DNA of 26,773 nucleotides. Source: a virus. How positions within the stretch are numbered: position 1 is the first letter of the stretch; each line of letters opens with the position of its first letter. The notes below the pieces were generated by a model. The model saw nothing but the letters and a program-made list of their open reading frames with translations, did not search any database and had not been told where the DNA came from. Where the stretch lies: IMG/VR virus record IMGVR_UViG_3300008448_000518, positions 1 through 26,773 of that record; one strand, written 5' to 3'. Positions 3-25,712 of the stretch are shown piece after piece. The translations under genes and the position numbers were made by a program.

Positions 3-341
3 GACGGTTGGGTGACTCGTGCGTTCTACGAGGATGCCGACGAGCGCATCATGCAGCGTGGGAAGTACGAGGGTATCGGTAAGAACACAGCCGCATATCT
101 ATCGACCGACGATCCAGACTTGTATCCCGTGATCCTGCGAAGCGTATTGAATGGGAACATACGGTCATCGCAGTATCGTCAGGCAAGCAGTGGGTACGAA
201 GCACAGTACGACGCAAAACGTGTGAAGGCAGCGATCCTGAAACTGCACGACACTCGTGCGGATATCTACGACATCGTGAAGGTGACTGCCGAGCCGACCA
301 TCATGGGTAACGTGGTCGATAAACCGAGACTGAACCGCTAA
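3..341 (+). CDS. Hypothetical protein, C-terminal part (5' end outside window)
   Basis: The frame is open from the first bases of the window, and residues before the GTG at 12 (Asp-Gly-Trp) read on without a stop. This is therefore most likely the 3' end of a longer gene, although a start at GTG 12 cannot be excluded. About 110 residues are visible. They are charged, mixed alpha-beta in composition, with no signal peptide, membrane segment or motif I recognise. The stop is followed by a 114-nt gap holding the promoter and operator-like sites of the next gene, so this gene probably ends an upstream transcription unit. No function can be assigned. Confidence 0.6.
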   Translation, partial: DGWVTRAFYEDADERIMQRGKYEGIGKNTAAYLSTDDPDLYPVILRSVLNGNIRSSQYRQASSGYEAQYDAKRVKAAILKLHDTRADIYDIVKVTAEPTIMGNVVDKPRLNR

Positions 342-368: not shown

Positions 369-382
369 TAAACACGTGTTTA
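369..382. promoter_or_regulatory. Operator-like palindrome, copy 1 (even-centred)
   Basis: TAAACACGTGTTTA is a perfect 14-bp palindrome followed by TAAAT. It ends 7 nt before the -35 box of the promoter at 390-418. It shares its half-sites (TAAACA/TGTTTA) with six other copies up to 6016. Location and symmetry suggest binding by a dimeric regulator; this role is inferred. Confidence 0.6.
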
Positions 383-389
383 TAAATGC

Positions 390-418
390 TTGACTTGTGA
401 CCTGAGATCAAATATAAT
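390..418 (+). promoter_or_regulatory. Sigma70-type promoter for the MoxR/VWA module
   Basis: TTGACT (390-395) and TATAAT (413-418) are separated by exactly 17 nt, an almost consensus host sigma70 promoter. The expected start of transcription is near 425, leaving about 30 nt of leader before the ATG at 456. It is flanked by the palindrome at 369-382 and by CTAACAGTTAG at 423-433, which covers the expected start point. This is probably an early promoter read by host RNA polymerase. Confidence 0.75.
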
Positions 419-455: not shown

Positions 456-1529
456 ATGAGCGTGATTAATTTTGGTAAGACGATTTCCCTATCCGAGTTC
501 ACGACTGCCGTGTGCGAGGTAGGCCACCTAGTTACCTTGGTGGGTGAAGGCGAGATGGGTATTGGCAAGTCTGCCGTACTTAAAGAGATCGCCAAACGTA
601 TGCCGACACATCTACCTGCATACATCGACTGCACATTGCTAGACCTAGGTGACTTTGCCCTGCCGTATACCGTGGAAGAAAACGGGATGCGTGTGACTAG
701 GTTCGCACCCAATGCGCGGTTCAGATTCCACGAGGGTAAGCCCGTGATCATCATGCTCGATGAGATCGGCAAGGCGATGGGTGCGGTCAAGAACGTGCTG
801 ATGACCCTGATGAATGAGTTTCGTATCGGTGATCACTATCTGCCAGAGGGGAGTATTGTCTTTGCGACTACTAATCTAGGCGCGGAGAATCTGGGTGACT
901 TGCTGCAACCACATCAACGCAATCGTGTGTGTTCGGTACGTATCCGTAAGTCTGATGCTGATGAGTGGATCAATGACTATGCGCTGAGTAACGGGATCGT
1001 GCCTGAGATCATCGCGTGGGTTAAGCAGTTCCCGCATTGTCTTGCAGCCGGTGACGACCCATCCCAACGTGACAATCCGTATATCAATGTGATCGGTCGA
1101 GCGAACACGGGTGCTGTTGTCACACCACGTAGTCTTGAGAAGGCGAGTTACATCGCACAGCGTAGATCCGTACTTGGTGATGCGCTGACTATTAGTATGT
1201 TGTCAGGTGTGATCGGAGAGTCTGCCGCCCGCGACATGCAAGCGTTCTTCACTGTAGTAGATAAATTACCTACGTGGGATGCCATCATCGCAAGCCCAAG
1301 CACAGCGAAGTTACCGGATGACACTATCGCTCGGTGTATCTGCGTGTTCAGTGCCATCACACGAGTCGAGAAGGACACGTTGTCTAAGTGGATGACGTAC
1401 GTGAATCGCATGGACAAAGAATGGCAAGCCCTGTTTGCCAAGTCTGTAATGAAGTCACCGAAGCAAGCGTTCTGCGTGATGAACAGAGAGTTCCGCGACT
1501 GGGCGTTGGCTAATGAGTGGTTGTTCTAA
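456..1529 (+). CDS. MoxR-type AAA+ ATPase
   Basis: This 357-residue protein is a MoxR/AAA_5-type ATPase. It shows a Walker A motif GEGEMGIGKS (residues 30-39), a Walker B segment ending in LDE (about 97-103), a sensor-1 FATTN (136-140) and a basic QPHQRNR stretch near 151-157 that could hold the arginine finger. MoxR ATPases usually act with a VWA-domain partner as ATP-driven chaperones or metal-insertion machines, and the next gene encodes such a partner. The start is ATG 456, with GGAG six bases upstream. Some annotations call this family CobS because cobaltochelatase uses the same pairing, but nothing here supports cobalamin synthesis. The ATPase fold is clear; the substrate in the phage-infected cell is unknown. 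Confidence 0.88.
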   Translation: MSVINFGKTISLSEFTTAVCEVGHLVTLVGEGEMGIGKSAVLKEIAKRMPTHLPAYIDCTLLDLGDFALPYTVEENGMRVTRFAPNARFRFHEGKPVIIMLDEIGKAMGAVKNVLMTLMNEFRIGDHYLPEGSIVFATTNLGAENLGDLLQPHQRNRVCSVRIRKSDADEWINDYALSNGIVPEIIAWVKQFPHCLAAGDDPSQRDNPYINVIGRANTGAVVTPRSLEKASYIAQRRSVLGDALTISMLSGVIGESAARDMQAFFTVVDKLPTWDAIIASPSTAKLPDDTIARCICVFSAITRVEKDTLSKWMTYVNRMDKEWQALFAKSVMKSPKQAFCVMNREFRDWALANEWLF

Positions 1530-1542
1530 TAAACACTGTTTA
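1530..1542. promoter_or_regulatory. Operator-like palindrome, copy 2
   Basis: TAAACACTGTTTA is a perfect inverted repeat (6-bp arms, one central base). It starts directly after the TAA stop of the MoxR gene and lies 16 nt before the ATG of the VWA gene. Confidence 0.6.
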
Positions 1543-1558
1543 CATATCGGAGTGCAGC

Positions 1559-2713
1559 ATGAACAAGTTAACTGCTGAACAGCGTGTGCAGCGAGCGCAC
1601 GTAGCCCTGATGAACGATCCGAAGTATTGCCTGTATTCGGGCATATTCATGATCGGTAAGACCGAGGTAGATGACAACACGCCTACTGCCTGTACCAACG
1701 GGCGCGACGTTAAGTATGGCCGCAAGTTTGTAGATAAGTTGAGTGAGCAGGAGTTGCGCGGCCTGATCCTGCACGAGAACAAGCACAAAGCGTTCCGTCA
1801 TATGGAGATTTGGAAGCCGTTGTGGGACGAGAACCCGCGCCTAGCCAACATCGCTTGTGATCACGTGATCAACATTCAGATACACGACGAAGATCCGCAA
1901 GGTACATACGTGGCACTGCCGAAGGGTGGGTGCTTGGACTTCCGGTTCCGTGGCATGGATGCAAACACTGTTTACAAAATGCTCAAGGACGAGCAGGGGA
2001 AAGGTGGTGGCGGTGGCGAGGAAGGGTTTGATGAACACGACTGGGAGTCTGGTGAACAGATGACCCGCGAGGAGAAGGAGGTTCTTGCTCGTGACATTGA
2101 CCAAGCCCTGCGACAGGGTGCGATTCTGGCTGGCAAGTTGGGCGGTAACGTACCGCGTGATGTTGTCGATGCGTTGACACCGAAAGTTAATTGGCGCGAG
2201 GTGCTGCGTGAGTTCATCAAGAGCACGTGTTCGGATCGTGACGAGAGCACGTGGCGACGACCAGCCCGTAGGTGGATCGGCCAAGATGTCTACATGCCAT
2301 CAAGTATCTCAACGGCAGTTGGCAAGATCGTGGTTGCCATTGATACGTCAGGCTCTATTGATGGGGCGATGATCGGTCAGTTCTTAGGCGAGATGAAGGC
2401 TATCTGCGATACCGTCAAGCCCGAGACTTTGGAGTTGATGTATTGGGATACGACTGTGTGTCGGCACGAGACGTACGACCGCAATTCATTCGACAACATC
2501 TTGAGATCAACTAAACCTGCGGGTGGTGGCGGCACTGACCCACGGTGTGTGTCGGAGTACGTACGTGAGAAGAACATGAAGCCCGAGTGCATCGTCATGC
2601 TGACCGATGGTGAGGTGTACGCATGGGGTGACACGTGGCCGTGTCCTGTGCTGTGGGCGATTACAACAAAAGGTATTACCGCACCTGTTGGCAAGTCGGT
2701 AACGATTGAATAA
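1559..2713 (+). CDS. VWA-domain protein with HExxH metallopeptidase-like N-terminus (DUF2201-like)
   Basis: The 384-residue product has two parts. The N-terminal half contains HENKH (residues 72-76), an HExxH zinc-site signature as in the putative metallopeptidase domain found with DUF2201. After a Gly-rich, acidic linker (about 145-165), the C-terminal half is a von Willebrand A domain with a complete MIDAS set: DTSGS near 262-266, a Thr in GGGGTDP near 326 and Asp in LTDGE near 350. The start chosen is ATG 1559, preceded by GGAGTGCAGC. An earlier in-frame start at 1517 would overlap the ATPase gene and lacks this site. It is the expected partner of the MoxR ATPase, probably as a metal-dependent adaptor. 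Whether the HExxH half is an active protease is unknown. Confidence 0.85.
   Translation: MNKLTAEQRVQRAHVALMNDPKYCLYSGIFMIGKTEVDDNTPTACTNGRDVKYGRKFVDKLSEQELRGLILHENKHKAFRHMEIWKPLWDENPRLANIACDHVINIQIHDEDPQGTYVALPKGGCLDFRFRGMDANTVYKMLKDEQGKGGGGGEEGFDEHDWESGEQMTREEKEVLARDIDQALRQGAILAGKLGGNVPRDVVDALTPKVNWREVLREFIKSTCSDRDESTWRRPARRWIGQDVYMPSSISTAVGKIVVAIDTSGSIDGAMIGQFLGEMKAICDTVKPETLELMYWDTTVCRHETYDRNSFDNILRSTKPAGGGGTDPRCVSEYVREKNMKPECIVMLTDGEVYAWGDTWPCPVLWAITTKGITAPVGKSVTIE
1962..1974. repeat. Intragenic copy 3 of the TAAACA/TGTTTA palindrome
   Basis: CAAACACTGTTTA lies inside the VWA gene and differs from the intergenic sites by one base in the left arm. It codes for part of Asp-Ala-Asn-Thr-Val-Tyr, so coding constraint may have cost it the symmetry. 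Confidence 0.45.
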
Positions 2714-2723
2714 ACACTGTTTA
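2711..2723. promoter_or_regulatory. Operator-like palindrome, copy 4
   Basis: TAAACACTGTTTA begins with the TAA stop codon of the VWA gene. It is followed by TAAAT and lies 18 nt before the ATG at 2742. The right edge reads TATAAAT, which resembles a -10 box, but no -35 box lies at a suitable distance. Confidence 0.6.
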
Positions 2724-2741
2724 TAAATAGGAGAGTGCATC

Positions 2742-3563
2742 ATGATTCAGAATAGTGCAGTGCTTGTTGACCTGAACATCTCTGTGTGGACTGGTCGCAA
2801 GATGGACAAACGTGTGTCCGAGCAAGTCGATGCGTCTAACAATACGCGAGCGCGAGCCGGTAACTATCACAAAAAACTACTTGCTGGAACCGAGGCGTTG
2901 GATGGGTTGCATCGTGTGGTTGGGCTTGTGCGTCAGTGGCACTACGACAATACGTTGCCGTGGGCTGATAACGGTACGCGCCTGTTGTCTATGGCTAACT
3001 TCTTTGACTACAAGGCATCGCTTGGTGACTTCAAGTCTCAGTTCCATGCGGCGGCTGATGACTTCTACGCACAGTACAACGACCTTGTGAGTGCGGCTGC
3101 GTTCACGTTGGGTGACCTGTTCAATCCGAATGACTACCCGTCCATCGACGAGATCCGACGCAAGAACAGTTTCAAGTACGTGTTCAGCCCTGTACCTGAT
3201 GCGGGTGACTTCCGTGTTGACATCCCGAATGAGTACCGCGAGGAGTTACAGAAGATATCGGATGAGCGTGTCAATGTTGCGATGAAGGACGCATGGGATC
3301 GGCTGCATGACTGCCTGAAACATATGTCCGAGAAGTTGGCAGGTGATGAGAAGCAGGTGTTCCGTGACACGTTGGTGACTAACGCGACTGACTTGTGTTC
3401 GATCCTGACCAAGTTGAACGTGACCAACGACGCTAAGTTGGAGCAAGCGCGTCAACAGTTGGAGTCTGCGTTGGTCGGTGTCGATGCCAAGGACTTACGT
3501 AAGAGCGAGGGTATTCGCCACGAGGTCAAGACTCGCGTCGATGAAATCCTGAGTATGTTTTAA
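2742..3563 (+). CDS. DUF3150-like protein of the MoxR/VWA module
   Basis: The product is 273 residues, predicted soluble and largely helical. Its N-terminal pattern, a hydrophobic strand then DLNISVWTGRKMDK (residues 10-23), resembles the start of DUF3150 proteins as I recall them. The gene's position beside a MoxR ATPase and a VWA protein is the usual context of that family in phages and integrative elements. The C-terminal third is rich in Lys/Glu/Gln and looks coiled. The start is ATG 2742 with GGAGAGTGCATC in front. DUF3150 has no known activity; a structural or substrate role in the ATPase complex is inference. The family assignment rests on recall and context, without a search. Confidence 0.7.
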   Translation: MIQNSAVLVDLNISVWTGRKMDKRVSEQVDASNNTRARAGNYHKKLLAGTEALDGLHRVVGLVRQWHYDNTLPWADNGTRLLSMANFFDYKASLGDFKSQFHAAADDFYAQYNDLVSAAAFTLGDLFNPNDYPSIDEIRRKNSFKYVFSPVPDAGDFRVDIPNEYREELQKISDERVNVAMKDAWDRLHDCLKHMSEKLAGDEKQVFRDTLVTNATDLCSILTKLNVTNDAKLEQARQQLESALVGVDAKDLRKSEGIRHEVKTRVDEILSMF

Positions 3564-3570
3564 GGAGGTG
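3562..3570 (+). promoter_or_regulatory. Unusually strong ribosome binding site
   Basis: AAGGAGGTG is an uninterrupted match to the anti-Shine-Dalgarno end of 16S rRNA. It overlaps the TAA stop of the DUF3150-like gene and sits four bases before ATG 3575. This predicts strong, coupled translation of the small downstream protein. Confidence 0.7.
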
Positions 3571-3574
3571 TGAG

Positions 3575-3829
3575 ATGAAGAACTACATTGCAAAGATCGA
3601 AGAGATCAACGGTGGTATGGAATACAAAACAGAGTTTCTGTTTACCACGAAAAAAGATTCGTGGGCGTATGGCAACAAGGTCGCTGCCGACTGGCGTAGT
3701 GGTAACTCTGACTACGACAGCAACGTGGGCGGGTACTGGAACGAGGAAACAATAATCCGGTTGGACACGGTACACGAAGTGCCGCCCGAAGATTTTGAAG
3801 TGCTACGCAAATACCTACCCGTACTGTAA
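3575..3829 (+). CDS. Small hypothetical protein (84 aa)
   Basis: This 84-residue protein has no recognised domain. It is acidic and aromatic-rich, with an N-terminal strand-like segment (MKNYIAKIEEI) and a central Gly/Asp/Asn/Tyr-rich part. There is no signal peptide, membrane segment or cysteine. It has the strongest ribosome binding site of the window and lies only 11 nt after the DUF3150-like gene. Its stop codon is the first three bases of another copy of the operator-like palindrome. It probably belongs to the same transcription unit as the MoxR/VWA genes. Confidence 0.75.
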   Translation: MKNYIAKIEEINGGMEYKTEFLFTTKKDSWAYGNKVAADWRSGNSDYDSNVGGYWNEETIIRLDTVHEVPPEDFEVLRKYLPVL

Positions 3830-3839
3830 ACACTGTTTA
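3827..3839. promoter_or_regulatory. Operator-like palindrome, copy 5
   Basis: TAAACACTGTTTA again begins with the stop codon of the preceding gene. It is followed by TAAAT and stands 16 nt before the GTG start at 3856. Spacing and flanks match copies 2 and 4 closely. Confidence 0.6.
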
Positions 3840-3855
3840 TAAATGGAGAACTAAA

Positions 3856-4650
3856 GTGCTTAACATTATCGAAGGACAAACGGCAGTGGCCAAGAGTGCC
3901 ACACTCGAAGCACTCATAAAGGGGTTGGCACGTACCCACTACAGCCGATATCCCGTCAATGCGAGATGGCTTACCCACGAACGTGTTCAGTTCTGTGATC
4001 CTCGCTGCCCTAGTTTTGATCTGGGTGAGTTGCTGGTGGGCGACGGCGGCGTCAAGATCTACAGCCCGTTGATTACCAACAACAAGTTTAGAGAAAACAC
4101 TTCAGCTTACAATTCTAAAAAGACAAGTGATCTGAAGAAGATGCGTATGTGGCTGAAGGAATACGTGAAGTGTATGACCCCCGAGCAAATTGCCAGAGAA
4201 AGCGCAGACCGTAAGAACACTGCTTATTACGGTTGGGTACTCGAAGCACAGAACGAAGTTGAGAATCGTATTGGGCAAATGTATGCGTCCAAGGATGAGA
4301 TACTTTTTGATGCGGCTACTTACTTTGAGACCGGTGTTGCGTACTCAACGAAAGTGTTTGTCAACATGAATAGACCTGAAGTTGCAGAAGGACTGAAGGA
4401 GTACGCCATCCGTAAGCGTGAGCCTCGTCCAAATGTGTTCGTACTGATGAACCCTGACAACGTGGTAAATATGTTCGACACTAAAGACAACGGGTTTGTG
4501 AAGACGTTTACCGAACGTGAGCCAACTACGTATGACAATCTTGCAGTTGACCTGCGCGAGAAGATTGCGATCCTGCGCCTGTCTGAGATGAAGAAGATCA
4601 TTCCGCAGGTTGGTGTGCGTGAGACAGAGTGTTGCTTTTGGTTAGCGTAA
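3856..4650 (+). CDS. Hypothetical protein (264 aa), end of the MoxR/VWA module
   Basis: The 264-residue product starts at GTG 3856 with GGAG eight bases upstream (3845-3848). The N-terminus (MLNIIEGQTAVAKSATLEAL) resembles the first strand and Walker-A-like loop of a small ATPase, but the GxxxxGK[ST] spacing is not met: GQTAVAKS has Ala in place of the final Gly. A degenerate P-loop or a chance match are both possible. A long charged middle part follows, then LRPNVF-like strands (FVLMNP near 197-202) that may form a Rossmann-like core. There are no membrane segments. It is separated from the 84-residue gene by the repeated palindrome, which suggests shared control. I do not recognise the family. 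Confidence 0.75.
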   Translation: MLNIIEGQTAVAKSATLEALIKGLARTHYSRYPVNARWLTHERVQFCDPRCPSFDLGELLVGDGGVKIYSPLITNNKFRENTSAYNSKKTSDLKKMRMWLKEYVKCMTPEQIARESADRKNTAYYGWVLEAQNEVENRIGQMYASKDEILFDAATYFETGVAYSTKVFVNMNRPEVAEGLKEYAIRKREPRPNVFVLMNPDNVVNMFDTKDNGFVKTFTEREPTTYDNLAVDLREKIAILRLSEMKKIIPQVGVRETECCFWLA

Positions 4651-4688: not shown

Positions 4689-4985
4689 ATGACCAAACAA
4701 AAAGACAAGTGGTTGTTGAGTGCCAGCATACAACCCAACGGGGATATGTATCCGTTCTACACATTGATTGATCACACGAAGATGCACTCGGCTAGATTCC
4801 ATACAGATAAACACTGTTTACCTAATGAGATCCAAGAACGAGTGGCGTTGATGCGTATCAAGCGTGGTGACTACACACCTACTAACCTAGGTAAGTGGAT
4901 AGGCGAGAGACATTTTGTAGTTGTGCTAGACAAAGACGAGTATCACAACCTACTGGAGATAGTCAGTGGCTACACCGGAAAGTAA
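4689..4985 (+). CDS. Hypothetical protein (98 aa)
   Basis: This is a basic 98-residue protein of unknown family. It appears to be an alpha-beta protein with strand-like segments at the N-terminus (KWLLSASI) and near the C-terminus (HFVVVLD). There is no signal peptide or membrane span. No ribosome binding site is visible before ATG 4689, unlike its neighbours; the nearest upstream signal is a candidate promoter whose start point would fall on the ATG. A copy of the TAAACACTGTTTA palindrome lies inside the gene at 4808-4820. Its last 20 bases overlap the start of the VRR-NUC gene, suggesting translational coupling. Confidence 0.7.
   Translation: MTKQKDKWLLSASIQPNGDMYPFYTLIDHTKMHSARFHTDKHCLPNEIQERVALMRIKRGDYTPTNLGKWIGERHFVVVLDKDEYHNLLEIVSGYTGK
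4808..4820. repeat. Intragenic copy 6 of the palindrome
   Basis: TAAACACTGTTTA occurs perfectly within the 98-aa gene, in a different reading frame from copy 3. It encodes Lys-His-Cys-Leu here, so protein-sequence conservation does not explain its recurrence. Confidence 0.5.
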
Positions 4986-5322
4986 GGTAAAGAAAAAGGT
5001 ATACGAGTTGTTCGATGAGTACGGTAGCAACTCGTACCGAATTACCCCGACTACTGGTGGGTATGGATCATCTGGTGCGCCTGACATCGTGGTTTGCTTT
5101 TTCGGTAAGTATGTAGGCATCGAATGTAAGGCAGGCAAAGGTAAACCAACTGCCCTACAGATGAAGAACCTACAAAACATTGTGAAGGCAGGCGGCTATG
5201 CGTACGTAGTGAACGAGAGGTCTGTCGGTGTATTCGCGCTGATTCTTTCGGGGATACTGTCGAAGCCTAACCCTGCACCACAACCAGAAGTATCTGACCT
5301 GACCCGTGAATACGAGAACTAA
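4966..5322 (+). CDS. VRR-NUC domain nuclease
   Basis: This 118-residue protein matches the small stand-alone VRR-NUC family of the PD-(D/E)xK nuclease superfamily. The core is GAPDIVV (residues 37-43, Asp40) and GIECKAG (51-57, Glu53 and Lys55), followed by a conserved Gln (65) and an AGGYAYVV strand. Phage and eukaryotic (FAN1) members cut branched or flapped DNA; a role in resolving replication or recombination structures is inferred. The start is GTG 4966 with GGAG seven bases upstream, overlapping the previous gene by 20 nt. The protein has the full domain and all catalytic residues. The tail after about residue 100 is Pro-rich and probably disordered. Confidence 0.88.
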   Translation: MATPESKVKKKVYELFDEYGSNSYRITPTTGGYGSSGAPDIVVCFFGKYVGIECKAGKGKPTALQMKNLQNIVKAGGYAYVVNERSVGVFALILSGILSKPNPAPQPEVSDLTREYEN

Positions 5323-5551
5323 AACAAGCAAGGGCGTAGCCCGTAGGATCATGCGACTGGCGGTGTCCAAGTTTGCCATTAGCGTACTGGACATCATGAA
5401 GACGTATCGGTTCACGGAGCGACACGCCAGAAGATATCTGCAATGGATGCAGGACGAGGGGCTGATATATCTGCGATACAAGCAGGACGGCTACTTTTAT
5501 TACTCAGTAACTAGGAACAAACGCGATGAAGTCATTACAAAAATTCGATAA
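5306..5551 (+). CDS. Small winged-helix-like DNA-binding protein
   Basis: The product is up to 81 residues and very basic at its N-terminus. The segment from about residue 23 to 70 (VSKFAISVLDIMK, then HARRYLQWMQDEGLIYLRY, then FYYSVT) reads as helix, recognition helix and beta-wing of a winged helix-turn-helix. The start is uncertain. GTG 5306 overlaps the nuclease gene and has no clear ribosome site. ATG 5351, preceded by AGGA, would give 66 residues and retain the whole winged helix. A role as a regulator or a DNA-end or ssDNA-binding accessory protein is inference. Confidence 0.65.
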   Translation: MNTRTKTSKGVARRIMRLAVSKFAISVLDIMKTYRFTERHARRYLQWMQDEGLIYLRYKQDGYFYYSVTRNKRDEVITKIR

Positions 5552-5831
5552 GGCACTGAAGGTAGCCGCCGAGTATGGGATGGACGGCGTGGACATGCAC
5601 ATTCTTTCAGACATAACCAGCCAGCAGATTGTGAGCGGCGAGGCAACTATCATGCAGTTCTCTGACGGGCGGCCTTACGCATCGTTTGGAACCATCCATG
5701 CGCGCATCAAACGCATGGTGAAAAGCGGCATCCTGACCAAGCGGGTCAAGGAGGACAACCAGCGGTACAAGTTGCTGGAGAGTGGACCGAAGTACGAAGA
5801 GTTTGTCGATAAGTTATATAAAGTTCTTTAA
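5526..5831 (+). CDS. Winged-helix-like protein (101 aa)
   Basis: This 101-residue protein begins at ATG 5526 inside the end of the preceding gene (26-nt overlap). Its middle region (GTIHARIKRMVKSGILTKR, residues about 54-72) has the pattern of a recognition helix followed by a loop and strand of a MarR- or PadR-like winged helix, and the C-terminus is helical. It follows another winged-helix-like gene, but the two are not obviously alike in sequence. It may be a transcription regulator. Target and ligand are unknown. Confidence 0.65.
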   Translation: MKSLQKFDKALKVAAEYGMDGVDMHILSDITSQQIVSGEATIMQFSDGRPYASFGTIHARIKRMVKSGILTKRVKEDNQRYKLLESGPKYEEFVDKLYKVL

Positions 5832-13836: not shown

Positions 13837-14721
13837 ATGAGCAACGAACTCGCAATGTTAGATTCAGGGTTACCGGAGTATCTGAAGACCCTGCAAGTTG
13901 ACGCTACTACCAAAGCCCTCATGGGCGGCAGCGGTACTGGCTCGTCCATCAAGCGTATCTCCATCAAGGGTGGTGTATGGCGCATGGTGATCAACGGTAA
14001 GGAAGTCGCACAGAATGAAGATCGCCACATGAACGTGGTTATCGTCGCTGCTTCCCCGAAGGTATCCCGTACGTACTACGCACAGCAGTATCAGGAAGGT
14101 GGCGAAGTTATTGCCCCGGATTGCTGGTCTGCCGATGGTGAAGTACCTGACCAAAAGGCCACGGCTCCGCAGTCAAAGCGTTGTCTTGATTGCCCGATGA
14201 ACGTACCGGGATCGGGTCAGGGTAACAGCCGTGCTTGCCGTTATAGCCAGCGTATCGCTGTCGTTCTGGCGAACGATGTCGGCGGGGATGTGTTCCAGTT
14301 GACGCTTCCGTCTACGTCTATCTTTGGTGAAGGCGCAGCAGGTAAGTGGCCGCTTCAGGCTTACGCCAAGTTCTTGGGCGGTAAGGGTATCCCGATCACG
14401 GCGGTCGTTACCGAAATGCGTTTTGATACCAACAGCGCTACGCCGAAGATTAACTTCAAGCCTGTAAGTTTCTTGGATGCGGCACAGCACCAGAAGGCCA
14501 TTGATCAGGGCAACACGGATGCTGCCAAGAAAGCAATCACTATGACCGTAGCCGAGGCGGATAACGCCAAGCCGCGCTTGTCTGCTCCTAAAGCCGAACC
14601 TGCTGCGGCTGTTGTAGTTGAAGAAGTAACCGAACCTGTTAAGCGTACTTCCAAGAAAGCCGAAGAAGCCGATGCTGCCAAGCCTGATCTGTCCAAGATC
14701 CTCGCTGAGTGGGATGACTAA
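13837..14721 (+). CDS. Probable single-stranded DNA-binding protein
   Basis: The 294-residue protein fits a phage SSB in layout. A beta-rich core (about 36-225) includes KRISIKGGVWRMVINGKEV and a potential zinc site (Cys96, Cys116, Cys119, Cys134, with CLDC at 116-119). A low-complexity Ala/Glu/Lys linker follows (230-280), then an acidic tail ending in EWDD. Acidic tails of SSBs bind polymerase and helicase partners, and T4 gp32 also holds a zinc in its core. Its place between the helicase and primase genes agrees. The start is ATG 13837 with AAGGAG in front. The assignment is by architecture and context; no SSB family signature is certain. Confidence 0.6.
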   Translation: MSNELAMLDSGLPEYLKTLQVDATTKALMGGSGTGSSIKRISIKGGVWRMVINGKEVAQNEDRHMNVVIVAASPKVSRTYYAQQYQEGGEVIAPDCWSADGEVPDQKATAPQSKRCLDCPMNVPGSGQGNSRACRYSQRIAVVLANDVGGDVFQLTLPSTSIFGEGAAGKWPLQAYAKFLGGKGIPITAVVTEMRFDTNSATPKINFKPVSFLDAAQHQKAIDQGNTDAAKKAITMTVAEADNAKPRLSAPKAEPAAAVVVEEVTEPVKRTSKKAEEADAAKPDLSKILAEWDD

Positions 14722-14954
14722 TGGTTTCTCGTGGGTATTCCACGTTAACGGTACAGGCGATATACGACGCTAATCCGTTCTTGTTGGGTGTGAAACTCGC
14801 CAAGATCTGTGTGAAGCTGAATATCCCTGCCAAAGACGTAGCGGATTACCTTGGTGTAAGTCGGCCTACCGTGTACTCATGGTTCATTGGTAAGCACGAA
14901 GTTTCGGCTAAGCACATAGAACAGGTTCAAAAGCTAATAGATAAATTAGCTTAA
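14721..14954 (+). CDS. Small helix-turn-helix (XRE/Cro-like) regulator
   Basis: The 77-residue protein begins at ATG 14721, overlapping the SSB-like stop (TAATG). Residues about 24-72 form an XRE-type helix-turn-helix: KLNIPAKDVADYLGVSRPTV (32-51) then YSWFIGKHEVS and a closing helix. The size equals a bare DNA-binding domain, like Cro. It is a candidate binder of the TAAACA/TGTTTA palindromes in the left part, though nothing in the sequence proves this link; the HTH-DUF3310 and winged-helix proteins are alternatives. Downstream is the structured leader of the primase gene. Confidence 0.82.
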   Translation: MVSRGYSTLTVQAIYDANPFLLGVKLAKICVKLNIPAKDVADYLGVSRPTVYSWFIGKHEVSAKHIEQVQKLIDKLA

Positions 14955-18121: not shown

Positions 18122-18149
18122 GGCCCCTGCTTCGGCAGGGGTCCTTTTT
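18122..18149 (+). terminator. Rho-independent terminator between the converging gene blocks
   Basis: CCCCTGC (18124-18130) and GCAGGGG (18135-18141) pair around a stable TTCG loop; GG/CC extend the stem with one bulge, and TTTTT follows at 18145-18149. This is a classic intrinsic terminator for plus-strand transcription. On the minus strand no T run follows the stem. The stop codon of the 2030-residue minus-strand gene (18148-18150) lies at the T tract. Confidence 0.88.
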
Positions 18150-21100
18150 ACGGAGTGATTCCCAACTCGTCGTAGATCTGGTTAGCCAGTTTCGGGTCTA
18201 CCCGTACACCGTTTACGGAATCCAGAATCTTCTTCTGACGACGTTCAATCGCCCCCTTGATCACCTTACCGGTAATCGCCTTCGTCGGGTTACTTGCCGA
18301 GAACGATTGGGCTTCTTCCAGAGCCGTAATGAACCCTTCAGCATCACCACTCATCTGTGCCAAGGCAGCACGGGCAATGATCGCGTTACGGCGTTCGAAG
18401 ATCTTGCTCTCCATACGCTTAGCAGCACCAGCCTCTTCACCAGCCTCGGCAACGTCGCTAGGACGGAATCCAAAGACCTGCATGAACGAGTTGTATGCGT
18501 TCACATCATCAACCAGCGGCATACCGTTAGCGGTGTAAGCACCGTCAGTGGCGTAGCGAATACCTTTGTGAATGTTACCAATCGCTCGTGGAGCCAACTG
18601 CTCAAAGGCTCGTCCGTACTGTTCGTTAGCCATATAGTCAAAGGCACGGGGTACGCCAACGGCGTAGGCATACGCAGGACCGAGGAACTGCTCTAAGGTG
18701 TATGTAACTGGACCGACTTCAGCCATACGCTTCGGGTCTTCACGCCAGAACATACCGGTCCAACCAGTACGGCTAGCAATGTCAACGCCAGTCAGGTAGT
18801 TGACGGGACCCTTGTAGTTGAAGAGGCCGATAGCCTCGCGCATCGCGAAGTCCGGGTTATACGGTTCATCGTCATCACCGAACATACCATTCAGGGCCGA
18901 TACGATTGCCATACCAGCACCGACCAGCGGCATACCCTGAACACCGGCAAACACGTACGCAGTACCAAAGTATCCGATAAGTTCCTTACGGGCGGCGTCT
19001 CTGACTTCTTTGGATTCCCCCTTACCAGCCTCACGCACGGCGCTTACCAGAAGGTTAGTACGTACGATGGCGAACCGCTTGAAGGTCAGTGCAGTACGGG
19101 CGAGTCCATTGCCCATGATGGGAGGCGCAGCCTTCGGGAAGGACGATCCATATACGTCGTAGACAGCACGTTCCGCTTCTTCAAAAGCCTTCTGATCAAA
19201 CGTACCGGCGGGAGTTTTGTTGGCCTTCTTAGCCAGTTCATAGGCAGCCAAGAACGTCGTTTCGCGGTTGAACATATCCGACTTGGCAAACGCCCAGTTG
19301 GTCATACGCTCGACACCGGCCTTGATTCGCTCCAGTTTGGAGTCGATGTTCTTGAACTCGGCAATGTCCCGAAGTTGTTGCTCACGCAACACACCGGAGT
19401 CCAGACCACGCTTGATGACTTCAGCAATCTCGGGAGACTTCTGCTTACTAAAGAAGTTTGAACCCGCTTTCAGGATAGCAGCCGACGCATCGGCAAACCC
19501 ATACTTACCACCCAACCGACTAAGCGTGATAGTTGGGATATCTAAAGTGTTAACGATGGCGGTAGAAATGTTTGCGCCAAGGTACATCTGGTAACTGAAG
19601 TAGCTGAGCTTAGCCGCCCAGTTGTCCAGACTCGGGTTGGCAATGAAGTTCATCTGCCGATCAACCGTCAGAAGCAGGTCTTCATACGTCTTATTAGGCA
19701 GTTCACCTGTATCGACTTTATTAGCAAGATCTGCACGAATCTCTTCCGCAGCTTCGCGGAACTTCGGAGCGAACTCCATGTTAGTCAAACGGCGAGCGTA
19801 ACTACTACCCACGTTAGCGTAGGCTTCCAGTACGTTATTAGAGAAGCCAGCGATTCCTTCACGCCGACGAGACATCTGCAAAATAGATTTGGACGGAAGA
19901 TAGTCCAAGTAATTGTCCACGATCTCCCTAATAACAGCGTCGTTTACCTTGGCTTTTTTCAAAGTGCCTACGATATCGCCAAAGAACCCACTGGAAGGAA
20001 GTTCTGATTTATCCATTTCCCCAACGATGGTCAAACTTTCGTTTTTTGCTCCCTCACGTTTAGCTTTGGCAAGAGCCATATCTCGCTCACGAGGCGAGTC
20101 AAATTGCAGGGCAATGTCTTCCCCATCTTTATCGGTGTAACGAAGTTTGTATTTGCCCGTACGAAACAACGGTAGGTATACCGACAGGCGGCGTTCGTTG
20201 AACTTGTTCAGCATCTTTTGCCATTCGGTAGGCGTTAGATACTGCTGCAACATCTTTTCTACACCGAGCGAATAGTCGATATAGGCAAGGCGTAGTTGCT
20301 TGTATACTTCCTTAACGTCCTTCGGAAGCCGGTCAAACTCTTTGAATATCGGGCTATCTTTCTTAGCCTTCCAGTTGATGTTGCGGCTCGGGTCTACAAC
20401 GTCAAGCACTTCTACCTGCTCAACAGTCGTATCCATCATAGTTTTGTAGAACTTCTCACGCTGGGCAGGCGGGTACTTGTCGAGCACTTGCTGCCAGTTC
20501 TGGATGTTCTCTACGATTTGATCCTGACGATTGCGTAACGTCACGCCCTCTTGGTTTAGGTACTTCCAGAGTTTGCCAAACCCACCGGTAATCTTTCCGT
20601 ACATGCGGTCAAGATCGTGAGCATTAAGCATCCCATACAGGCCACGGCGAACCGCACCCGGTACGTTAGACGCAGCGTTGGTAGCAGCATCATAAGTGTC
20701 CTTACCTGCTTGGGGCAGGCTGGACGGAATCTTGCCGATTGAGTTGATGAAGCGGCGGTCATTGTCGCGCTGCTCAGTCGGTGTCATCGAATACCGAGTA
20801 AGTTCATCAAACGGAGTACCGTCTAAAGGACTTTTAGTAGCAATCCAACCATCAGCCGAACCCGGACCCATCGCATCCAAGAAGTCTTTTACAGACTTGG
20901 CTGGGACGAAACGATTGCCTGTCAATTTAGAGACAAGCTCGCGCAACTTCTTAGCGAGATCTGAGAAGAACTTTTCAACAATGCCTACAGGCTTCTCGCT
21001 AGTCGTAGCCCACTTGGAAGTGTTGTCGGCAAACCATTCGGTAAACGAACGCCAGTAGCTATCTTCACGAGCTAATTGAGTCTCGGGAGTTTTACCCTCC

Positions 21101-24100
21101 GCTTGCGCTTCGGCTGTCTCACGGTTACGCAACGCACGGATAAGGTCAGAACCTTTCTTTTTCTTGGCCTCAACAAGCCAAGCGTTGTACTCCATACGGA
21201 TCGCGTCTTGGACTTCTTTAGGAGCGTTATTAAACGCCACAAGTTCAATCACGTGTCCGAGTTCGTGAGCAATAACTTCAATCGTACGCCCCTCCGACAT
21301 ACCGGGTCTAACCGATATATAGAAGTCCTTGAAGTTCGGACCATACGGACGCGCAGATCCATCCTCGTTAACATTGAGTCCAGCAGACAATGCCGAGGAG
21401 TAAGTACCGTACAGTTTGTATTTGTCAGCCTGCCCACGAACATCTTCAGGATGGAACAGGAATACCCGTATGTTTCCCAACCCCATCGACTTCATCAGGC
21501 TTGACAGGAAGTTAGTATAGTTCGGGTCCATACCCTCGGACGCCACTACGTTTGATCTTGCTCCAGCAAACGGTCCTTGAGGGTTCTGCTCAAACCTTGC
21601 TTTGTCCTCGGCAACAAGACGCTGCTTGGCTTTGACCAATATTTGCTTCTCTTCTGGAGAGAAGTCCTTACCTGCAAATTGCTCGATGTCTATCCGAGTG
21701 TAGATATTGGGAGAACGCTTGACTCCCATGTATTTAGTTTGCCCATCACGGACACCCTGCGCGGTAACAAGCGCGAGGTTTTCATCCGAGTAGACGACCT
21801 TCCCGCCAAACACGCTCTCAATATCTGTAGCCCATTTGGGATGTTCTTTAACCGCAGGTGCGGCCTTTTCTTCAGCAGCCTTCAAGAATTGATCGGCAGC
21901 ATCGCCTTCATCCGACTCCTTAATAAAGATCGGCTTCTCTTTCTTTACTTTAGGTGCAGCCTTTGAACCGCCAGTACGCTTGTAGTACGCAGCGATCTCG
22001 TCATCCGTAGCGTCTTCTCTAAGTTGTACGGCAGGCGGAGTGGTCGGTTTAGCTACCGTCTTAGGCGCTTCTTGCTTCGGCTGGGTAACCTTGGGTTTCT
22101 TGGAAGCAGCAGAGAGTTTCGAAGTCACCAACTGTACTCGCGGTACAGGCTTCTTCAATTCATTAACAATATCTTCGTAACCGGTATTAGTAATCCGCCC
22201 TTCTTCAAAAGCAGTAGCGGCCTGAGTACGAAGTCCGTCTAAGAGACGGTTGTATTCTTCCATCGCTTTAGCGCGAAGGTTTCTTTGGGCAGTACGGCGA
22301 ATAATCGCCATACGCTCTTCAGCACTTAATGGAGCTTTGCCTTGATCCGTTCGACCATCAGTTTGTGGAGGAAGTCCGTCAGTGCCAGCCACTCCTCCCG
22401 GCTTAGGTCCTGTAGTTTGGGGTTTTCCGGGTCGTGGTCGTTGTACAGGCAGTCCAGCGCCTCTTCGAGGACGGGGAGTTCTAACTCCAGCACCACTTCG
22501 TACACTTTGTTCCCCCTCGGGAGTGAACTCCCATTCAAATTTACCCGGTACGAATCGGATAACCCCCTCGTTACGGAGAGAGGCAAGTTCGTTCTTTAGT
22601 TCGCTATCCGGTAGTCCAGTACGCCCACGCAAGTTATCAAATGTCTTGCGAGTATCAGACTCGATCATTGTGCGAAGCACGCGCTGCCTAGGCGGTAGCT
22701 GGTCGATGGGCGCGCTAGAAAAGAAGAACGCAGTCTGTTCTTCGGGCACTCCTTCAGGCGGAGCTTCAATCTCTTCCCGCATCGGTACTGTAGGAATCTG
22801 CGCCCCACGAGGTAACGGAACCTCGTCGGCAAACAAGTCTCCCTGTCCTTCCACAGCTTTCATTCTAGTAAGTGGAAGTTCTTGCTGCGCTTCGTAGTCG
22901 AAATCAAATCGCTCTTGGCCCGGAGCAACCGTAGTCTCCGGGGTTTGAAATACAAACTGGTTTGGCTTGACGTTGCCCTTTTTATCTAACTTAAGCCCAA
23001 GATCTTTGGCTTCTTCTTTGTACGCACGAGAGCGGGGACGTAACCCTCCCAACGCTTCTTCGGCTGGTGTGTACATCCCACGCGGGGCTTCCGTAGTGGG
23101 ACCAAGCAGGTCAAGTTCTGGCTGAGCAATACCGCCTTCCAACGGAAGTTCCTGCTGAGTCATCGGCAGACTACGCAGGTATCCCAAATCATCTTTGGCG
23201 GCAGCAGCAGCGTCTTCGTCAAGCGCAGCCTTTCTAAGAGCCTCTTCAGATCCTTCTACAAACTGAGTTTCACGGAAGGCTTCGTAATCTTCAGCAGGTA
23301 TACCTGTACCTGTAGGGCCTTGTGCAAATACGTCTTCTTCTACGTCTCTGGCTGTAGCCGCATCTGCGGCGGCTTTTTCTTTAGCCGTGGCTGCATCACG
23401 CAACCGGCGACCCAGAGCCAATTCCATGACGGCTCCGATAACCGCACCGGCTCCGCCACCCATAGCAGCGGCTTCGCCTACCCCACCAAATGCAGCCTCT
23501 TCTGGGTTGTATACGCCCTTCTCAATAAGGTTCTGGAGGACTTGGCTACTGGCTTCCTGAAGGGCTTCTTCACCACCAGCGGCGGCAACACGCTTGAGAG
23601 CCGGTACCAGCCCAGCAACTTCCGAGATGGCCTCGTCACCAAAGCCAAATCGACGGAGAACACGTATAGGAGCAAGGGCTTCCAGCGCACCCGGACCGAC
23701 ACCAAGAGCAGTAGCCAGACCACGTTCGCCCTCGGTAGCGCCTTCCTCTTCAGCACGGAGCCGAGCCTCACCAGCACCCGCGCCAACACCAAGCCCGACA
23801 GCCGCAGCGCGACCAGCAAGACCTAATGCACCGAGTGGGAAGAACGGCAGGGTGGAACCAATAGCCTCACCCAACTTACGTCCGGTGGCTTCTTCGTATC
23901 CCGCTTCAGGGGCAAAGGCTTCCCGGAGGGGGTCAACTACGCCAGCAACAGCACGACGTACAGATTGTTCCTGCTCATCAGGTAGGAGTGCGGCAGCACC
24001 GGTAATAGCCGTTTCGCCAAGACCAGCAGCACCGGGAATTAATCCCTTCAGGGCTTCCTTGACCTGCCCACCTATAGTGGTTTCAGGTTCTTCTTTGGCT

Positions 24101-24240
24101 ACCGCAGGGGCTTCTTCTCTCCCAAAGATGTTCGAGAATTGTTGAGAAGCGAAACGCTGTACGTCTTCTGGGCTGGCGTTATCAGGCACCTGCAACCGGG
24201 CAATCCGACCATCCGGTAACTGAACCCGTGCAATAGCCAT
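18148..24240 (-). CDS. Giant virion/ejection protein with gluzincin domain (polyvalent-type, 2030 aa)
   Basis: The 2030-residue protein opens with VQLPDGRIARLQVPDNASPE (residues 6-25), a short N-terminal domain common to large phage internal proteins. Gly/Ala-rich hydrophobic helices follow (about 60-280) that could enter membranes, then Pro/Glu-rich linkers, a winged-helix-like part (about 515-575), and a zincin domain with HELGH (992-996) and Glu1068 in FTEWFADN. The last 600 residues are helical, with a hydrophobic stretch near GYFGTAYVFAGVQGMPLVGA. T7 gp16 (1318 residues) holds a comparable place and cell-wall role. Probable functions are DNA ejection and wall or protein cleavage. Some such proteins carry LPD-type domains, which I could not verify here. 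It starts 11 nt after the 486-residue gene, with AAGGCGG upstream. Confidence 0.75.
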   Translation of the reverse strand: MAIARVQLPDGRIARLQVPDNASPEDVQRFASQQFSNIFGREEAPAVAKEEPETTIGGQVKEALKGLIPGAAGLGETAITGAAALLPDEQEQSVRRAVAGVVDPLREAFAPEAGYEEATGRKLGEAIGSTLPFFPLGALGLAGRAAAVGLGVGAGAGEARLRAEEEGATEGERGLATALGVGPGALEALAPIRVLRRFGFGDEAISEVAGLVPALKRVAAAGGEEALQEASSQVLQNLIEKGVYNPEEAAFGGVGEAAAMGGGAGAVIGAVMELALGRRLRDAATAKEKAAADAATARDVEEDVFAQGPTGTGIPAEDYEAFRETQFVEGSEEALRKAALDEDAAAAAKDDLGYLRSLPMTQQELPLEGGIAQPELDLLGPTTEAPRGMYTPAEEALGGLRPRSRAYKEEAKDLGLKLDKKGNVKPNQFVFQTPETTVAPGQERFDFDYEAQQELPLTRMKAVEGQGDLFADEVPLPRGAQIPTVPMREEIEAPPEGVPEEQTAFFFSSAPIDQLPPRQRVLRTMIESDTRKTFDNLRGRTGLPDSELKNELASLRNEGVIRFVPGKFEWEFTPEGEQSVRSGAGVRTPRPRRGAGLPVQRPRPGKPQTTGPKPGGVAGTDGLPPQTDGRTDQGKAPLSAEERMAIIRRTAQRNLRAKAMEEYNRLLDGLRTQAATAFEEGRITNTGYEDIVNELKKPVPRVQLVTSKLSAASKKPKVTQPKQEAPKTVAKPTTPPAVQLREDATDDEIAAYYKRTGGSKAAPKVKKEKPIFIKESDEGDAADQFLKAAEEKAAPAVKEHPKWATDIESVFGGKVVYSDENLALVTAQGVRDGQTKYMGVKRSPNIYTRIDIEQFAGKDFSPEEKQILVKAKQRLVAEDKARFEQNPQGPFAGARSNVVASEGMDPNYTNFLSSLMKSMGLGNIRVFLFHPEDVRGQADKYKLYGTYSSALSAGLNVNEDGSARPYGPNFKDFYISVRPGMSEGRTIEVIAHELGHVIELVAFNNAPKEVQDAIRMEYNAWLVEAKKKKGSDLIRALRNRETAEAQAEGKTPETQLAREDSYWRSFTEWFADNTSKWATTSEKPVGIVEKFFSDLAKKLRELVSKLTGNRFVPAKSVKDFLDAMGPGSADGWIATKSPLDGTPFDELTRYSMTPTEQRDNDRRFINSIGKIPSSLPQAGKDTYDAATNAASNVPGAVRRGLYGMLNAHDLDRMYGKITGGFGKLWKYLNQEGVTLRNRQDQIVENIQNWQQVLDKYPPAQREKFYKTMMDTTVEQVEVLDVVDPSRNINWKAKKDSPIFKEFDRLPKDVKEVYKQLRLAYIDYSLGVEKMLQQYLTPTEWQKMLNKFNERRLSVYLPLFRTGKYKLRYTDKDGEDIALQFDSPRERDMALAKAKREGAKNESLTIVGEMDKSELPSSGFFGDIVGTLKKAKVNDAVIREIVDNYLDYLPSKSILQMSRRREGIAGFSNNVLEAYANVGSSYARRLTNMEFAPKFREAAEEIRADLANKVDTGELPNKTYEDLLLTVDRQMNFIANPSLDNWAAKLSYFSYQMYLGANISTAIVNTLDIPTITLSRLGGKYGFADASAAILKAGSNFFSKQKSPEIAEVIKRGLDSGVLREQQLRDIAEFKNIDSKLERIKAGVERMTNWAFAKSDMFNRETTFLAAYELAKKANKTPAGTFDQKAFEEAERAVYDVYGSSFPKAAPPIMGNGLARTALTFKRFAIVRTNLLVSAVREAGKGESKEVRDAARKELIGYFGTAYVFAGVQGMPLVGAGMAIVSALNGMFGDDDEPYNPDFAMREAIGLFNYKGPVNYLTGVDIASRTGWTGMFWREDPKRMAEVGPVTYTLEQFLGPAYAYAVGVPRAFDYMANEQYGRAFEQLAPRAIGNIHKGIRYATDGAYTANGMPLVDDVNAYNSFMQVFGFRPSDVAEAGEEAGAAKRMESKIFERRNAIIARAALAQMSGDAEGFITALEEAQSFSASNPTKAITGKVIKGAIERRQKKILDSVNGVRVDPKLANQIYDELGITP

Positions 24241-24251
24241 AGCTGACCGCC

Positions 24252-25712
24252 TTATTCAAATCCGAGGAACTTAAACCCTGACATCTTACCAGTGTCACCC
24301 AGCGAACTTAAACCCAGCATACCAAACAGTTGCTTCTGCCCATCTTCCCGAATCTTGTTGCGAGCGGCCAACTGCTCTTCAGGCTTCATCTTCAAGTACG
24401 TCGGGTCCATAGCCAACGCACCAATCTGATCAGCAACGTTTTCGGATACTTTAAGAGCCGTTTCAAGGTTCTGCCCTCGAAGCGTAGCAGCAGTACGTTC
24501 AGATCCAAGACGAGCTTCAAGGTTCGCAGTGTAGTAAGCAAGAGCGTTTCTGGAGGCTGCTTCCTTAGCTTTAAGCGCACGATCTTCAGATTGCCCCTGC
24601 AACTGAATGGCAGTGTTCAGGTTGCCCATCTTCATCTGCTCATCGGCACGAAGAAGGTTCATACGCTCACGAGCCAACGTGCGTTGGTAGTCCCGATCCG
24701 CTTTATCAATAGCCACACGATTAGTAACATATGACTGACCGGCAGCCGCAGCCGAACCAAGGAACTTAGCACCCGGGCGGCCAGCAGCTTCAGCCATAGC
24801 GAAACCAGCCTGAGCCAAAGCCATACGGCGGTCTTGAGCGGCACGCTTACCAGCCTCTGCCTCTTCTTTATCCAACAACTCTTTGTATGCCGTTGAAGCC
24901 CCACCAATACCAAGGGACTTCTGAAGGGCTTCAATGCGCTTGAGTTGAGTAGCGTATTCGTCTTCCTTCGGTGAAGCCTCAACAGCAGGCATCGCGGCAA
25001 CCGGACGAGGTGCAGCAACAACCTGCTCTTTACGACCCGTGTCTTCCTTTGCCGAGCCTTTAGATACGGTTTCCGCCATGTCTTGTTCGACCGGGGTAAC
25101 GGCAGCTTGCTGTTTAGCAGCTTTGGCAGCCTTAGCAGCGTCAGATTGTGCTTTAGTAAGCGGGAAGTTTTCGCGGAAGAACTGACCAATATCCACATTA
25201 TCTCGGGCCATACTGGTTTCTGAACCAGCCAGCATTCTGCGGAGTTGCCCACGCAACACAGTGGCGCGATTGAACTGTCCGGCTTGCTCTGCCTGAGCAA
25301 TCATTTCCGTAAGTTGTTTGCGTGCGGTTTCCCTTCCAAGCTGAGCAATACCAGCAGCAGGATCGGATTCCAGACCTTCGTTGCCACCTTCAGCGAAAGC
25401 GACAATTCCACCACCCGCGTAGTTGGCGCTATTCATAACACCAGTCGGTACTGCGCCTAAGCCTTGCTCCATAGGAGAAGTGACGGCAGCGAGTTTCTCC
25501 CGCACGGTCGGCATAGACTGCATCGGAGGTTGAGCCGCACGGAGTCTTTCTTGCTGCTTCATCATCAGATACAGCACTGACTGCGGGGCAATACCCGAGG
25601 CGGCGTTCTGCTGGATGTACGCGATCTTCTGCTCCGGAGTCATACCCTCCGTCGCTCGCATAACCCCACGACCAAGTTCCCCAATCGGATCAGGAATTGC
25701 CGGATTCATCAT
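24252..25712 (-). CDS. Probable internal virion protein (486 aa)
   Basis: The 486-residue product begins MMNPAIPDPIGELGRGVMRA. It is rich in Ala, Gln, Glu and Lys. The first 130 residues contain a Gly-rich patch (NYAGGGIVAFAEGG), the middle is disordered (about 185-250), and residues about 255-450 are long charged helices suited to coiled-coil assembly. There is no enzyme motif. Start ATG 25712 overlaps the previous gene's TGA (ATGA), so translation is coupled. Position between a Gln-rich protein and a giant protein matches the gp14-gp15-gp16 order of T7-like ejection proteins, which is the basis for the call. A scaffold role is the alternative. Confidence 0.6.
   Translation of the reverse strand: MMNPAIPDPIGELGRGVMRATEGMTPEQKIAYIQQNAASGIAPQSVLYLMMKQQERLRAAQPPMQSMPTVREKLAAVTSPMEQGLGAVPTGVMNSANYAGGGIVAFAEGGNEGLESDPAAGIAQLGRETARKQLTEMIAQAEQAGQFNRATVLRGQLRRMLAGSETSMARDNVDIGQFFRENFPLTKAQSDAAKAAKAAKQQAAVTPVEQDMAETVSKGSAKEDTGRKEQVVAAPRPVAAMPAVEASPKEDEYATQLKRIEALQKSLGIGGASTAYKELLDKEEAEAGKRAAQDRRMALAQAGFAMAEAAGRPGAKFLGSAAAAGQSYVTNRVAIDKADRDYQRTLARERMNLLRADEQMKMGNLNTAIQLQGQSEDRALKAKEAASRNALAYYTANLEARLGSERTAATLRGQNLETALKVSENVADQIGALAMDPTYLKMKPEEQLAARNKIREDGQKQLFGMLGLSSLGDTGKMSGFKFLGFE

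Follow-up and report, generated by a model that had tools for sequence, protein, structure and literature searches.

IMGVR_UViG_3300008448_000518 is a linear fragment of 26,773 bases whose 5' end lies inside a gene; this entire IMG/VR virus record is referred to here as the window. Close to that end it encodes an AAA+ ATPase (g1), a metallopeptidase-VWA protein (g2), a DUF3150-like protein (g3) and a 264-residue companion (g5), which together form a conserved four-gene core, are preceded by a consensus promoter of the host type and are accompanied by an array of short palindromes (dyads) whose sequence is specific to the phage lineage. The explanation that best accounts for these features as a whole, and which is put forward with slightly less than even confidence, is that the genes would specify an early remodelling machine under the control of a dyad-binding repressor, and that the region would make up the downstream half of the block of early genes in a podovirus-like phage, uncultivated and about 64 kb in size. 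Sets of AAA+, metallopeptidase-VWA and DUF3150 proteins are common to phages and plasmids and have no assigned function; the triad itself is already known, and it is the control site that is the new part.

Composition and constancy of the module

With g2 as the key, 80 related viral loci were retrieved and examined by means of iterated profiles. Co-occurrence is expressed relative to the loci with room for the gene in question, and the counts should not be taken as independent events, since the loci are related, some are near duplicates and several are fragments. When considered on this basis, g1 accompanies g2 in 67/67 loci, g3 in 63/64 and g5 in 48/50, while a 98-residue downstream gene (g6) is found in 35/50, being missing mainly in lineage D (the lineage letters A, B, C, D, E and L are our own naming), and the 84-residue g4 in 3/50. 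The five open reading frames that a first-pass annotation had placed between 456 and 4650 are all present, and its suggestion that they constantly occur together was borne out for g1, g2, g3 and g5 and failed for g4, which reduces the five-gene set to a four-gene core. Nor is the set bounded at five genes as had been supposed, because both g6 and an upstream gene (F27) share the conserved neighbourhood.

The first member, g1 (456..1529, + strand, 357 residues; phrog_1297), matches the Pfam models AAA (27.4 bits) and AAA_5 (22.6 bits) above their cut-offs, which upholds its identification as an AAA+ ATPase. Since it stays under the cut-off of the MoxR-type models AAA_3 (13.8 of 27) and bpMoxR (12.5 of 27), it is called MoxR-like rather than filed as MoxR. 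Its characteristic motifs are well conserved among homologues, with counts of 66/66 for Walker A, 64/66 for Walker B, 57/66 for sensor 1, 56/66 for HxRNR and 63/66 for PR[ST]L.

The second member, g2 (1559..2713, + strand, 384 residues), most likely starts at the ATG at 1559 and not at the GTG at 1517. It consists of a DUF2201_N metallopeptidase-like domain (99.7 bits), within which the HExxH motif reads HENKH, and a DUF2201 VWA domain (69.9 bits), both above cut-off, so that the earlier description of a VWA protein carrying an HExxH motif stands. All 72 homologues conserve HExxH (72/72), the DxSGS motif of the metal ion-dependent adhesion site (MIDAS; 72/72) and GGGGT (72/72), and the N-terminal domain is predicted to be zinc-metallopeptidase-like. 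PHROG 1314 and several GenBank records label this family "HNH endonuclease" or "homing endonuclease", which looks like a propagated error, because DUF2201 domains, an HExxH motif and a MIDAS are found in the protein instead.

For g3 (2742..3563, + strand, 273 residues), the assignment as DUF3150-like holds in part: the window protein scores 21.8 bits against Pfam DUF3150 (PF11348), slightly under the cut-off of 24.9, but is homologous to DUF3150-annotated proteins; 10 of 17 g3 homologues match PF11348 at E<=0.01 (best 5.5e-8), and a tblastn comparison with the MinM2 protein annotated as DUF3150 gives 9e-22. In two of the loci (L076 and L079), the DUF3150 gene is placed 5' of the ATPase gene.

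The companion g5 (3856..4650, + strand, 264 residues) is named here as the fourth part of the machine. Its AlphaFold2 model is a well-folded alpha/beta structure, with a predicted local distance difference test (pLDDT) score of 93.5 and a predicted template modelling (pTM) score of 0.85, for which Foldseek finds no match in the PDB at E<=0.001; Pfam and PHROG searches likewise give no family. A profile of 48 g5 sequences yields only weak matches, to designed repeat proteins and p9-1, over or near the g5 helices, and these are left uninterpreted. The P-loop-like GQTAVAKS noticed earlier in this protein is a chance resemblance, as a conserved GxxxxGK[ST] is absent across 60 homologues. Downstream, g6 (4689..4985, + strand, 98 residues) shares homology with the C-terminal domain of g5 (hhalign 97%, E 5.6e-11, 90 columns). 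Of F27, a conserved gene inside which the contig starts, the window contains the 112 C-terminal codons (3..341, + strand); its full-length homologues, of about 270–320 residues, lie upstream of g1 in L007, in 4/4 near-complete genomes and in all main lineages, and Pfam and PHROG searches assign it to no family.

The remaining gene, g4 (3575..3829, + strand), is a passenger outside the conserved module. Besides its presence in only three loci with room for it, a pattern search of IMG/VR recovers it at just four loci, which rules it out as a module member, and a distant relative in L086 lies elsewhere, 5' of gene 1. Gaps of more than 150 bp separate g1 from g2 in 30/74 loci, g2 from g3 in 45/69 and g3 from g5 in 38/65. 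These gaps hold small variable genes, and g4 is one such insert.

Predicted early transcription and probable role of the module

A sigma-70-like promoter, TTGACT-N17-TATAAT, with 11 of 12 consensus matches, is found at 390..418 on the + strand. Within 180 bp before g1, 59/74 loci have an equivalent that agrees with the consensus at 10 or more of the 12 positions and is perfect in 32, as opposed to 0/79 before g2, 2/69 before g3 and 0/66 before g5, with a shuffled rate of 0.04. Because a consensus promoter stands before g1 and almost never before g2, g3 or g5, these genes are very likely to form, from g1 to g5, a single unit transcribed early by the host polymerase. Such a promoter also precedes g6 in 18/50 loci, and g6 and the following genes may thus have a second start. 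The genomic setting is that of near-complete relatives of 61–65 kb, in which a divergent intergenic region is followed by a plus-strand early block, replication genes and minus-strand virion genes. The window runs from the end of the early block through replication genes (DNA polymerase A, a SNF2-type helicase and a DUF927 primase) to the first opposite-strand genes, and the module lies on the strand opposite to the terminase, portal and giant/ejection genes.

According to the proposed mechanism, host RNA polymerase would start at 390–418 and read g1-g2-g3-(g4)-g5 as one early unit. In the resulting complex, g1 would be the MoxR-like AAA+ motor, g2 its VWA partner, g3 an all-but-constant third subunit and g5 a family-specific partner. 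In NorQ/NorD, the ring of AAA+ subunits takes hold of a VWA finger and puts the target under strain (PMC13036017); by analogy, a ring of g1 would engage the VWA domain of g2 and use ATP to remodel, and possibly also to cleave, a target protein, a chaperone-like activity that would fit the intact catalytic motifs. The predicted early expression of the module, its position on the other strand from that of the virion genes and its plasmid counterparts point to a host or establishment factor as the probable target rather than a part of the virion. The predicted early expression in particular moves the expectation from virion assembly towards a role on or against the host.

Iyer et al. 2021 (PMC7824862) nevertheless proposed virion assembly, by analogy with Acidianus two-tailed virus, as the role of the MoxR and metallopeptidase-vWA pair in jumbo phages; the AAA+ motor and its VWA/metallopeptidase neighbour would then help to assemble virion proteins and to process them proteolytically. 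For the present module this is unlikely: it fits less well with a module that lies in the early block behind a promoter of the host type, on the other strand from the virion genes, and with the fact that plasmids carry the same triad yet build no virion. A chaperone for metal or cofactor insertion, which would load metal into a particular phage or host enzyme, is an improbable alternative. MoxR/VWA pairs such as NorQD do insert iron (PMC13036017) and MIDAS is intact throughout the homologues of g2, but the early block shows no constant metalloenzyme neighbour, the HExxH domain points to peptidase chemistry, and no client common to plasmids and phages is obvious.

Palindromic dyad arrays

The site TAAACA-N1-2-TGTTTA occurs six times in the window against about 0.01 copies expected, and the common control site proposed in the first-pass annotation is therefore real. 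Copies precede genes 1, 2, 3 and 5 but not g4, and two are intragenic. The first, TAAACA-CG-TGTTTA (369..382), lies upstream of the operon promoter, with its centre at about -50. Four copies share the sequence TAAACACTGTTTA: one is 29 bp 5' of the g2 start (1530..1542), one lies over the g2 stop and 31 bp 5' of the g3 start (2711..2723), one over the g4 stop and 29 bp 5' of the g5 start (3827..3839), and the last array site in the window is inside g6 (4808..4820). The copy within g2, CAAACACTGTTTA (1962..1974), in which the first base is C, stands at offset +404 and is kept in close relatives; the position inside g6 is similarly maintained, at offsets of +114 to +132 in 17/19 lineage-A loci.

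In an unsupervised search for short inverted repeats, nearly every locus revealed its own over-represented dyad, which follows the lineage: TAAACA in A, TACTGTC in B, TTAACA in C, CTAAC(A/T) in D and TTATCA in E, with others in single loci. The TAAACA site is common to the window's own lineage (A) and to L062, whereas no clear over-represented dyad emerged from this search in L041, L065 and L084. Four near-complete genomes hold 11 (G001, G004 and G007) or 12 (G011) dyads of their own type and none of each of the other three types, with 0–0.1 expected, and all of them lie in the early block, none outside the stretch between the divergent region and about g6. Many sites in lineages A–C stand 17–60 bp 5' of gene starts, while those of lineage D are mostly intragenic. 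Intragenic positions are kept within a lineage, namely +404 in g2 and about +117 in g6 for A, +94 in g5 for B and about +906 to +979 in g2 for D. Some single loci depart from these types: L076 has GTTAGTG-N4-CACTAAC, with the arms turned outwards relative to lineage D, an outward-arm dyad is also present in L079, and L085 has GTATGC-N5-GCATAC, with a five-base spacer and at least 11 core copies in a 9.9-kb contig beyond which its first gene lies.

The arms are near-invariant, and broken pairs comprise 8 G-U against 16 A-C, that is, no G-U excess, which argues that the dyads act as DNA rather than as RNA. Counted from the predicted transcription start of g1, their centres fall at -70, -50, -17 and +23 to +82, and positions this variable suit a repressor better than an activator. 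Taken together, these features suggest an array of DNA operators for a dimeric repressor, which may also act as an elongation roadblock.

Two other roles for the dyads have to be weighed. There is only a small chance that they serve partition or the organisation of DNA (as ParB/KorB-like sites) or replication, their overlap with the promoter being incidental; the span of the array, about 8–10 kb, and its many intragenic copies, especially in lineage D, would suit such sites, but the array runs from the divergent intergenic region to near g6, and stable maintenance is not suggested by 17 genomes in which no integrase was found. It is very improbable that they work as RNA hairpins, or as promoters for an RNA polymerase encoded by the phage (compare the N4 virion polymerase), notwithstanding arms of 5–7 bp, loops of 3–4 nucleotides and many copies just 5' of Shine-Dalgarno sequences, because the missing G-U excess on the RNA strand argues against hairpins, some copies lie upstream of their promoter's start point, the giant gene is DarB-like with a weak virion-polymerase match of 98 residues, and no T7-like polymerase was found in a search without a positive control.

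The candidate dyad binder

If the dyads are operators, they would be bound by a phage protein that acts as a dimer and serves as repressor and elongation roadblock, and the gene most likely to encode it is the one that opens the block. In each lineage, the early block opens with a gene of about 160–190 codons directly after the first dyad. This gene belongs to family AC in lineages A, C, E and L and in L062, to family D in lineage D and to family B in lineage B; family D is weakly related to AC (E ~4e-5), family B is unrelated by profile comparison, and AC is not found in the whole B and D records. In a tree of g1-g2-g3, lineage B has a support of 0.955 and branches as the sister of L062, and midpoint rooting makes D the outgroup. 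Since L062 keeps an A-type dyad and its first gene is of the AC type (leave-one-out E 1.8e-37), the unrelated dyad of B tracks its unrelated first gene and not its tree position. L086, with a distant B-like first gene (E 3.6e-7), has again another dyad, AAGTA-N-TACTT. As the independent switches are few, this concordance between dyad type and first-gene family is suggestive rather than proof, and it makes the first gene, which in the present phage lies outside the contig, most likely the best candidate for the putative binder. In G011 (lineage D), there are two tandem first-gene copies (L127:8836-9333 and L127:9855-10319), with a dyad before each.

It is a tentative proposal, advanced with the scales tipped somewhat against it, that the first gene represents a new class of regulator without a known fold, which together with about 11 operators per genome would provide self-contained early control, and that in the ancestry of B both were replaced by an unrelated pair, changing the regulon code in concert. 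Within a single phage family, the dyad arrays provide about five operator types, each paired with a candidate regulator, that form a natural series, and a change of recognition sequence across a regulon of at least 10 sites becomes directly testable by DNA-binding assays.

A number of points weigh against an early machine under a dyad-binding repressor. Co-occurrence may reflect the inheritance of an operon within one phage family, early genes can also serve assembly, and interaction, target and binding are all predictions. Most of the g1–g3 dyads of lineage D are inside coding sequence, so that a purely start-linked role fails there. The AC first-gene model is all-helical (pLDDT 89.7, pTM 0.60), with no Foldseek match at E<=0.001 and no known DNA-binding fold. 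Moreover, the phage has a second, helix-turn-helix protein as a possible regulator, a 77-residue HTH_3 (Cro/CI-like) protein (14721-14954, + strand) that a profile finds in 25/36 virus records, two of them by weak partial matches. As dyad binder the latter was rejected, because its recognition helix, SRVTVYSWFRG, is also present in lineages B and C, whose dyads differ.

Relation to known systems

The triad is not restricted to phages of this kind. Relatives of g3 were identified in 44 plasmid records, mostly from Burkholderiales, in three cyanophage records and in one Bryobacterales metagenome-assembled genome, and adjoin g1 and g2 homologues in the cases read; a single-protein DUF3150 scan of bacterial genomes gave two loci. 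Burkholderiales plasmids, the Bryobacterales genome and cyanophage MinM2 hold the same three families, adjacent or close, but in the order ATPase-DUF3150-VWA, as compared with mostly ATPase-VWA-DUF3150 here, and they are devoid of g5, g6 and F27. Judging from these comparisons, the triad is a known set of mobile elements, and within the range tested g5, g6 and F27 are specific to this phage family. The CobS-DUF3150-CobT arrangement of SXT/IncC elements was not found in the plasmid searches and is not used here.

Relatives of g2 were identified in 754 records of cultured phages. The two examined, from PA5oct-type and CRP-7 phages, contain g1 and g2 homologues, with no match to g3, g5 or g6 in the stretches read. 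The region itself has no blastn match in cultured phages. By its terminase, the family falls near HTVC023P-type pelagiphages and Phage DSL-LC04 (52–59% identity) and MinM2/Pag-Yong1 (48%), and the module genes are absent from the stretches read of HTVC023P, DSL-LC04 and 023Pt_psg01. The pair described in jumbo phages (Iyer et al. 2021, PMC7824862) likewise places a MoxR AAA+ gene beside one whose VWA product has a metallopeptidase domain at its N-terminus; the present case differs from that pair in the podovirus-like phages of about 64 kb, the location in the early block and the addition of DUF3150 and g5. The likeness to NorQ/NorD, and also to CbbQ/O and RavA/ViaA, lies in an AAA+ hexamer that remodels its target via a VWA/MIDAS partner (PMC13036017), although neither an HExxH domain nor a DUF3150 subunit is a defining part of those systems.

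For the dyads, the nearest parallels are found in mycobacteriophages. Cluster A stoperators number 20–30 repressor sites per genome, with a consensus that diverges together with the repressor (PMC6550527), but they are asymmetric and oriented and belong to temperate phages. The present dyads are symmetric, lineage C centres including both ACCT and AGGT, and a search for integrase (PF00589) in the 17 genomes, in which the control was positive and parAB was not included, found none, so that lysogenic repression is not suggested. Cluster O phages carry 17-bp dyads in 34 copies genome-wide with one consensus (PMC4351075), and in Cluster K the start-associated sequences (SAS) and extended SAS (ESAS) are start-linked sites, with an ESAS consensus that varies by subcluster (PMC3203893). 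Both resemble the dyads described here in being multi-copy dyads of unknown binder, whereas here there are 11–12 copies in the early block only, the consensus is unrelated between lineages and a candidate binder is at hand.

Other genes of the window

Two small winged-helix-turn-helix-like proteins are encoded just 3' of the dyad array (5306-5551 and 5526-5831, + strand). The second of these is a weaker candidate for the binder, as it is present in lineages A, B and C but not in D. On the opposite strand, a giant protein of 2030 residues (18148-24240) matches a DarB-like antirestriction PHROG over its C-terminal 700 residues (phrog_10089, 2.4e-55). It was rejected as an N4-like virion RNA polymerase that would use hairpin promoters, given only DarB-like or unknown families, a virion-polymerase match of 21.7 bits at the N-terminus and no PDB match. 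The giant gene is followed by that of a DNA ejection protein (25709-26692, phrog_4287).

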